A DNA stretch of 64,000 nucleotides, taken from contig NZ_SZNH01000006.1 of assembly GCF_005869855.1 (NCBI RefSeq), positions 136,266 to 200,265 on the forward strand, read 5' to 3'. This DNA is from Nostoc sp. PA-18-2419 (GTDB lineage Bacteria > Cyanobacteriota > Cyanobacteriia > Cyanobacteriales > Nostocaceae). Position 1 is the stretch's first letter. Each line of letters opens with the position of its first letter. The position numbers and the translations under genes were made by a program. Below the pieces are notes generated by a model. It saw only the letters and a list, made by a program, of their open reading frames with translations, made no database searches and was not told where the DNA came from. Shown in pieces: positions 48,000 to 51,401 of the stretch.

Positions 48000-48386
48000 T
48001 TATTGCGCCAATCTCCGATCTAAATTTCCATTACAGATTTCTGTTTTTTGCTTTCCAACTACTTCTAGATAAGCTCTCTCTTTAATTTTAGTTAAGCAAC
48101 TTGATGATACATTCTTTTCAGATATGGAATCATTGGGCTGTTTGAGCAGTTTTAGGTTTTCACTTTGCTGTTGGTTTATCCTGCTCGCTTGAGAATTTTC
48201 TTTGAGCAACCGATTATAAGTACGATATGGAATGTAATGAAGTGGATTATAACCAGCAAATCGCAGCATTAAAACACATGCCCAGGAATACTTTCCGGCA
48301 AGAATTGCTTCAACTACTTTATCAAATTGTTGAGGCTTCATTGCCTTATCTAAGTTACTACTAATACTAGCAATGTCTTGATTCAT
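48000..48386 (-). CDS. hetP: HetP-family heterocyst differentiation protein
   Basis: [46 protein letters not shown] matches the HetP family signature. Confidence 0.85.
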
Positions 48387-48927
48387 AGTCTTTAGGTCTC
48401 TTGGGTGAAGTAAAGTAGTTTGGTTTATGCGATTGTTGGTATTTTAATTGAGGCTAACAAACTGCATTGGCCTTTTTACAGCTGTTTAATCACTTTGGGG
48501 AAATAATTATAAGAGGACAACCTTAGATATTGACGATGAATAACAATCCATTAACACGTGCAAAGATAAATTTCCCAAATTATGATTGGCTCTCACAGCT
48601 TTGAAGTCTCAATGTAGCTATTAGTAGATACAGTTTTGTCCTCTTAACCTTTTTAAACTCCTAATTCAATAAATTTATCTGAATTTTTGCTTGTATCAAC
48701 TATTACTATTAAAACCAAATCATTTCCGGCAAATTTACAAACTTTTTTTGGCTATTACAAAAAAATATTCATCACTCAGCATTTACAATGCAATTTGAAT
48801 TTATACTATTTTTTGCTGCTAATCTCATTTGACAATATAGCAGATTTTTCAACTAATTTATCGAGTAAATTTAAATATTCACTTATAGATTGTGCAACTT
48901 TTAGTATTGTCCGTTTTGGGTAAGCAA

Positions 48928-48946
48928 TGAGGGGTCTTACCCCTCA
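48928..48946. promoter_or_regulatory. candidate HetR-binding palindrome
   Basis: TGAGGGGTCTTACCCCTCA, ~540 bp upstream of the HetP-family start codon. Confidence 0.75.
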
Positions 48947-50519
48947 GACAATATCAATTTTAAACTCTTATTATTGTCTTATTGCTAGACAATAATAGCA
49001 TTAAGTACAAGTTAAAATAATTTATATATTTAGGAGGATATAGAGGATTACTATAAATCAATAGATGGATTGATTAAAAATATTTTTTCTTCAAAGAGTA
49101 GGATAGTTTATTGTCTATTTAACTTTGTCAACGAATTTTTTAGTAGATAAATTAAGTAAATATATTAAAAATACTAATATTAAATAAAAAAGTTTTAATA
49201 ATTAATATTATCTATAAATATTGAAATTATTTAATAGTTATATTAAGGTAAACTGTATTATTTTGATTAAAGTAATAATTTTATGATTAAATCATCTAAT
49301 ATTATCTATAAAATTGTATATTCATAAAAAAAATAAATTAAGACAATATAGTAATTATATTTAATTGATAAAATTAATTGTATAGACAGGCAACTAGCAA
49401 TAGATTTAGAATTATATATAAAATAATAGTAATTAATACTTTTTACAAAAAATATTAATTACTATCATTACCTGATGAGTACTTTATTTAAAGAGGATAG
49501 CTCGGTTTAACATTATCTCATTGCTTTAAGAAAAAAATAAGACACAATTTTTAAATCTTAGATTGTGCCAGCTTTGAGAGTTTATTTTTTAACGAAGAGG
49601 CTGAAATCAAAGTTTTTGGTAAAAGCTTAGTATCACAAGAGTTATAGAGTATAATTTCAAAAAAGTGATGATAGAAAGTTAAGTTTTAATGAAATTGGCG
49701 TTCCTAAATCAGAATTGTTAGTTTCTCAATGAGTGGGCGATCGCATTTTTCTGATTGCCAAACAAAAGGATAATAAATTTCTTGCCAATTACTTATATAT
49801 GAATTATGATATAAATCCAACTTATTTCAACTCACTGCAACTGTTAGCACTTCATAATTGAGTGATGTCTGGGTTGGACTGCGCCAAGATAGCTTAAATT
49901 GTGGCATCAGCTTATTGGTACCTTTGTCCTGACTATAACCCTGGGAATTTTGGTAATATTTATGGTTAAAGCTAGTAATATTTGCATTTTTGAAACATAT
50001 AGTCTTCAATTCTCAATCCTTCAACTCTTACCATTACTGAAATTTTTCTGCGCTTCCGGAACACTAGGAAAATAAAATCACAAATGTCAACTGTGACTTT
50101 TGCCGTTATAGGCAAAAACAAAGGAGTGAGAAGTTGTCAAATAACGTATTTGATTCGTAGTCAGTGGTGCGCCATTATTACCCCTGCTTGTGATAAAAAA
50201 GGATTAAGGAAAACTTTTGTTATTAGAAAAGGAATAATATTATGTTCCTTCAAGTAACCGTCATTGCAACTCTAGGGAAGCAATCCCAAAAACCTTGTGA
50301 TTGCGTCTTTTTACTCCCAATGATATATTAAGGTTGATTTGCCGGACACAATATAACGCTCTTCCATTACTCTTGTAGAGAAGCAATCGTAAAGATTCTA
50401 GATTATGTTTTTCAATCTTGACCTACTTATAAGGGAATAAGTAAGTAATTTTTATTCTGCATCTTCCCTCTCTACCTGAAGTCCAGAACTGGTGTATTTT
50501 TGAAACATCATCTAAAAAA

Positions 50520-51401
50520 TTAAATAGGCAAATCAGCAGCACTATTAATATTTTTTAGGATTAAGTCAGGACTACTACGTTTAATTAAGCCAGTTAGAAC
50601 TTTACCAGGGCCAATTTCTATTACTTCCTGGATGCCGTTAGCTGGTAATTGCAGAGAAATTTCTCGCCAGCGTACCGAACCTGTCATTTGTTTGTTAAGG
50701 CGTTGTTTTAAAATTTCGGCATCAACAGAGGGAATTGGTTCTATATTCGATAAAACTGGGAGCAGAGCTGGTTTAAATTCTACAGATTGCAGGATGTCTT
50801 GAAATTCTGTAGCAGCAGCAGCTATTAAATGTGAGTGAAATGCTCCAGAAACTTTTAAAGGAATAGCACGTTTGGCTTTAACTTGAGACATCACCGCTTG
50901 TACAGCCTCGGTGGTACCTGAAATTACTACTTGAGCCGAACTGTTGTCATTTGCCATTACTACATCAGGCGTTTCGGCAATGACTTTTTCTAACTGTTCG
51001 CGGTCAAAGTTCATCAAAGCTGCCATCATACCGCCAGAGGCACTTTCCATCAGTTGGGCACGACGTTTCACCAAATATAAACCAGCCGACCACTCAAAGA
51101 CACCTGCAATGTAAAGCGCAACATATTCTCCTAAGCTATGTCCAGCAACTAAATCTGGTTGGTGCCCTCTCTCCCTGAGAAGGTCAGCAAGAACGCTTTC
51201 TACCACATAAAGACTTGGCTGAGTATATAGCGTCTGTGATAACTTTTCTTCTTGAGTTTGACATATTTCTGTCACAGACCAGCCTAAAATTGCTTCAGCT
51301 TGGGCAAATTTTTCTTTAGCGGCAGGTATATCTAATAAATCTATTCCCATTCCCAGTGCTTGAGAACCTTGTCCGGGAAACACCCATGCAGTTTTAGTCA
51401 T
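50520..51401 (-). CDS. fabD: malonyl-CoA:ACP transacylase
   Basis: WVFPGQGSQALGMG, VAGHSLGEYVAL, SGAFHSHLI. Confidence 0.96.
   Translation of the reverse strand: MTKTAWVFPGQGSQALGMGIDLLDIPAAKEKFAQAEAILGWSVTEICQTQEEKLSQTLYTQPSLYVVESVLADLLRERGHQPDLVAGHSLGEYVALYIAGVFEWSAGLYLVKRRAQLMESASGGMMAALMNFDREQLEKVIAETPDVVMANDNSSAQVVISGTTEAVQAVMSQVKAKRAIPLKVSGAFHSHLIAAAATEFQDILQSVEFKPALLPVLSNIEPIPSVDAEILKQRLNKQMTGSVRWREISLQLPANGIQEVIEIGPGKVLTGLIKRSSPDLILKNINSAADLPI

Follow-up and report, generated by a model that had tools for sequence, protein, structure and literature searches.

A probable HetR operator upstream of hetP in Nostoc sp. PA-18-2419 is retained across the order despite decay of the adjoining hetC

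In filamentous cyanobacteria, the master switch for nitrogen-fixing cells is HetR. The closest known system to the locus described here is the HetR operator of hetP in Anabaena (Nostoc) sp. PCC 7120 (GAGGGGTCTAACCCCTC; PDB 4YRV). In the crystal structure of HetR this operator is gcgaggggtctaacccctcat, and its GGGN5CCC motif is indispensable for HetR binding (PMC4649674). Binding of HetR to hetP and regulation of the gene in PCC 7120 have both been published (PMC4192349; PMC7377430).

The window (the whole stretch of 64,000 nucleotides of Nostoc sp. PA-18-2419 that was analyzed) contains TGAGGGGTCTTACCCCTCA at positions 48928–48946, a HetR-type sequence with no strand assigned. Its two 8-bp arms (TGAGGGGT and ACCCCTCA) form a perfect palindrome around a 3-nt CTT centre, and within its GGGGN5CCCC core the GGGN5CCC motif occupies 48932–48942. 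The original prediction had placed a perfect inverted repeat exactly here, but with 7-bp arms and a 5-nt centre; its resemblance to the PCC 7120 hetP operator was borne out, with two differences, both outside the GGGN5CCC contacts. From the palindrome it is 541 bp downstream to the ATG of ORF 48000–48386 on the minus strand (about 540 bp had been predicted). A whole-assembly scan (106 contigs, 7.6 Mb) found GAGGGGTN3ACCCCTC exactly once, at this site, while base composition gives an expectation per genome of about 0.007 exact sites and 0.34 sites with up to one mismatch. The sole one-mismatch site of the genome is upstream of another HetP-family gene. With up to two mismatches, nine sites were found vs. 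24 for a reversed-pattern control; since such sites are no commoner than in the control, only near-perfect ones are meaningful. Searches of the region with Rfam revealed no RNA family except one distant tRNA, and none of the reading frames of the 64-kb window encoded a PatS/PatX-like RG[ST]GR peptide.

The ORF at 48000–48386 (minus strand) encodes 128 amino acids and matched the NCBIfam HetP model NF037966 with 122.8 bits (cut-off 45; E 3e-36). A Pfam search gave no match to a HetP model. Overall, the genome contains four HetP-family genes. For comparison, one genome per species was scanned, and the best 80 relatives were taken with their flanks. In the protein tree, the window gene (group A) clustered with the hetC-linked HetP proteins of other genera, apart from the paralogue groups B, C, and D, the basal support within group A being modest. 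An exporter gene (peptidase-C39 ABC type) is located upstream of the hetP orthologue in Nostoc parmelioides, Anabaena subtropica, Fischerella, Cylindrospermum, and others; in N. parmelioides, its product has 1045 amino acids and fits the known features of HetC. From the tree and the hetC linkage in relatives we infer that the window gene is hetP itself, the orthologue of alr2818 of PCC 7120. The original prediction, which had only assigned the gene to the HetP family, was over-cautious in this respect.

Alignment with hetP upstream regions of other Nostocales had been proposed as a check of the prediction. The palindrome was found in 79 of the 79 orthologous loci that had upstream DNA for the search, 0.42–1.77 kb upstream of the gene. 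In Nostoc parmelioides (L069), it is exactly CGAGGGGTCTAACCCCTCA, i.e., the 19 bp of the published PCC 7120 hetP operator, and stands beside intact hetC and hetP. Invariance was counted on 80 sequences: GGGGN5CCCC was the same in all of them, while the 3-nt centre was free to vary. In the control comparison, which covered 77 loci, the best score within 1.8 kb upstream was 13–16 of the 16 specified bases in every locus, whereas scores did not exceed 12 for the reversed pattern in these sequences or for the DNA downstream of the gene; the choice of the best site per locus biases such scores toward agreement, and the controls were still cleanly apart. The centre (48936–48938 in the window; same position in L009–L088) changes between AAG and CTT, even among sister species. 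A tree from which the palindrome was left out needs at least seven switches between these two reverse-complement states, which suggests recurrent inversion of the 3-bp centre, perhaps via template switching within the palindrome.

All loci were aligned on the palindrome to find fixed elements. In the direction of hetP, the conserved columns and the variants among lineages revealed a −10-like box 31–34 nt downstream of the palindrome (48889–48894, minus strand), which is CACAAT in Nostoc, TATAAT in Fischerella, and TACAAT or GATAAT elsewhere. From this box a start is predicted near 48882, with the centre of the palindrome at about −55. No clear match to a −35 hexamer was found before it. A second promoter-like element, ATGAGA-N17-TATAAA (48800–48828, minus strand; ATGACA in most relatives), is a strong sigma70-like match lying rigidly 115–122 nt from the palindrome start. 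It agreed with TTGACA/TATAAT at 10 of 12 positions in 62 of the 80 loci, and TAGTATAA was present in 66 of the 80 vs. 1.8 expected. A second start is predicted near 48793. This more conserved element would place the palindrome at about −145, which is unusual for direct activation.

Farther downstream, an NtcA-type half-site pair, GTAATAGTTGATAC in the gene sense (48693–48706, no strand assigned), keeps GTA and TAC around a variable core. The original prediction had located it correctly but had considered that it might be a chance occurrence; this does not agree with its presence in 49 of the 80 loci, vs. 6.8 expected from shuffles, with a spacing from the palindrome that is nearly always constant (about 240 nt for the majority of carriers; in the Scytonema group, about 200 nt). 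In the class II arrangement of NtcA promoters, a −10 box of the TAN3T type follows GTAN8TAC by about 20–24 nt. Downstream of the window site, TATTGA and TTGAAT matched TAN3T only partially, and the spacing of a −10 box is unconvincing.

DIF1 promoters, which also serve early heterocyst genes, are HetZ-dependent and carry TCCGGA at −35. This motif was absent within 420 nt after the palindrome in all 80 loci; therefore, hetP does not belong to the DIF1 class. In the window clade, CCGGAA occurs near GTAN8TAC, and it was rejected as a DIF1 motif, being clade-limited and never TCCGGA. The leader contains one more conserved element, AAAACTGTATCTACTAA at 48621–48637 (minus strand), about +318 from the palindrome; as ACTGCATCTACC, it is kept about 318 nt from the palindrome in most Nostocales. 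Possible hairpins (CTTTTGTC...GACAAAAG) directly follow it in several relatives. Single-sequence folding of the hetP leader gave a long AT-rich fold.

The region upstream of hetP had been described as otherwise gene-free, which is correct apart from one overlooked item, a decayed hetC remnant (peptidase-C39 ABC exporter) with an in-frame stop at 49728–50006 on the minus strand, identified by tblastn and translation. Fragments of relatives' hetC matched the window at best with 57% identity over 46 amino acids (E 1.7e-9), and this remnant was the sole hetC trace in the window. Close relatives have truncated hetC ORFs at the matching position. The best full-length HetC-like matches elsewhere in the genome were 46–48% identical, i.e., at the level of paralogues that coexist with intact hetC in N. 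parmelioides, vs. 52–91% for intact hetP-linked HetC. It therefore appears from these identities that the Nostoc clade of the window lost hetC but kept hetP and its operator. Nodularia spumigena has also been reported to be without hetC (PMC3610870). Survival of the hetP switch after hetC decay agrees with the report that extra hetP compensates for hetC loss in PCC 7120 (PMC4133259).

The neighbourhood differs between lineages. The gene upstream of hetP at 50100–50520 is fabD-like in the window, whereas a glucosylceramidase-like gene is found there in the sister locus L009 and in many Nostoc; a rearrangement breakpoint may therefore lie within 50100–50520. In Fischerella, Scytonema, Calothrix, and other lineages (loci L045, L046, L049–L052, L055, L060, L061, L063, L064, L068, L074–L079, and L086), a gene resembling HlyD-type membrane fusion proteins is located between the operator and hetP, so HetR may drive both genes together there.

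The palindrome is very probably the HetR operator of hetP. This reading rests on the match to PCC 7120, the invariance of the core in 80 of 80 sequences, the orthology of hetP, and the intact contact residues of the host HetR. The genome encodes one HetR, a 299-aa ORF (HetR_C, E 1.3e-46) that keeps R62, H69, E71, K73, R74, and K76, the six residues of the DNA-contact region named by PMC4649674. The 846 bp examined in front of hetR contained no GGGN5CCC. In the proposed mechanism, a HetR dimer would bind the GGGN5CCC core and activate the minus-strand hetP from a distal promoter, with transcription starting near 48882, near 48793, or at both. The resulting hetP leader would be 400–500 nt long, NtcA might contribute at 48693–48706, and HetP would drive commitment to heterocyst differentiation.

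That a palindrome occurs by chance near a HetP-family gene has a practically negligible probability. Palindromes containing several mismatches are not uncommon (nine sites with up to two mismatches, below the 24 of the reversed-pattern control), but an exact match is expected only 0.007 times per genome, and conservation in all 79 orthologous loci refutes this explanation. The palindrome could also be a transcription terminator or another RNA hairpin, e.g., the place where the ancestral hetC transcript ended, because RNA copied from such a GC-rich, perfect dyad would fold, and the dyad follows hetC in relatives. However, TTTT within 12 nt downstream was found in only 4 of the 80 loci and a matching upstream A-run in only 5. 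The outer pairs were often mismatched with almost no compensation (one G–C cell), and GGGG/CCCC never varied. Taken together, these features argue for a protein-binding site instead of an RNA hairpin and make a terminator very improbable.

Two further explanations accept the HetR site and are unlikely, to about the same degree. HetR could mainly regulate a plus-strand transcript, divergent or antisense, instead of hetP: the palindrome is symmetric, an antisense RNA of the hetC–hetP intergenic region in PCC 7120 has risen 12 h into nitrogen step-down (PMC3141674), and the far-side flank is conserved in 16 close relatives. Against this, the block conserved across the order is on the hetP side, no plus-strand gene is evident nearby, and the published binding and regulation in PCC 7120 concern hetP (PMC4192349; PMC7377430). 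Alternatively, nitrogen control of hetP could, in the window species, depend mainly on NtcA at 48693–48706, with the HetR site secondary, as GTAN8TAC is conserved around a variable core. Yet about 30 of the 80 loci lack this motif, among them L054, L057, L067, and L069, whose palindromes are the most PCC 7120-like; the HetR site is present in all, and no clear TAN3T −10 box stands at the usual 20–24 nt from GTAN8TAC. Direct action of HetR on hetP remains the preferred reading.

The second-best HetR palindrome of the genome, TGGGGGGTTTAACCCCTCA (G000:C89:70174-70190; loci L003 and L120, with HetR-type palindromes also in L123 and L168), precedes the group C HetP paralogue by 721 bp. It was found 0.7–0.8 kb upstream of this paralogue in the window genome and its sister genome, the only two sharing it among the 12 Nostoc checked. 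In the ten other Nostoc, the 2 kb preceding the group C gene contained no GGGN5CCC, and none was detected in the 2 kb in front of the genes of HetP groups B and D. Anabaena subtropica has a different palindrome, TGAGGGGTGACACCCTTCA, 212 bp upstream of its own group C copy, which apparently arose independently. Group C probably corresponds to alr3234, because the N. parmelioides copy begins with Met-Tyr, as is reported for Alr3234, which has been described as a brake delaying commitment (PMC9045159). Tentatively, and with more doubt than belief, we consider that in the window lineage HetR directly controls both hetP as the accelerator and the probable alr3234 orthologue as the brake. If TGGGGGGTTTAACCCCTCA is bound, the two genes would form a HetR push-pull pair, which the published PCC 7120 scheme is not known to show. 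In that case, the commitment brake may have been rewired in this one lineage.

The HetR site itself is textbook; what is added here is the rigid order-wide retention of the control region despite the decay of hetC nearby. An operator described in a single organism is widened to the whole order, with its constraint quantified and the never-changing bases of the HetR site identified, and the fixed spacings that separate this site from two promoter-like elements and from an NtcA-type site are now documented. The hetZ HetR-recognition site (GGGTCTAgCCCagCA) has the GGGN5CCC core in common with the window but is an imperfect dyad with a different target gene, whereas the window dyad is perfect. With the PCC 7120 hetP operator, the window shares the GAGGGGTCT and ACCCCTC arms, the GGGN5CCC core, the far-upstream position, and the orthologous target hetP. 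It differs in having T for C at position 1 and T for A in the centre, neither affecting a GGG or CCC base, and in the decay of the adjoining hetC in the window species.
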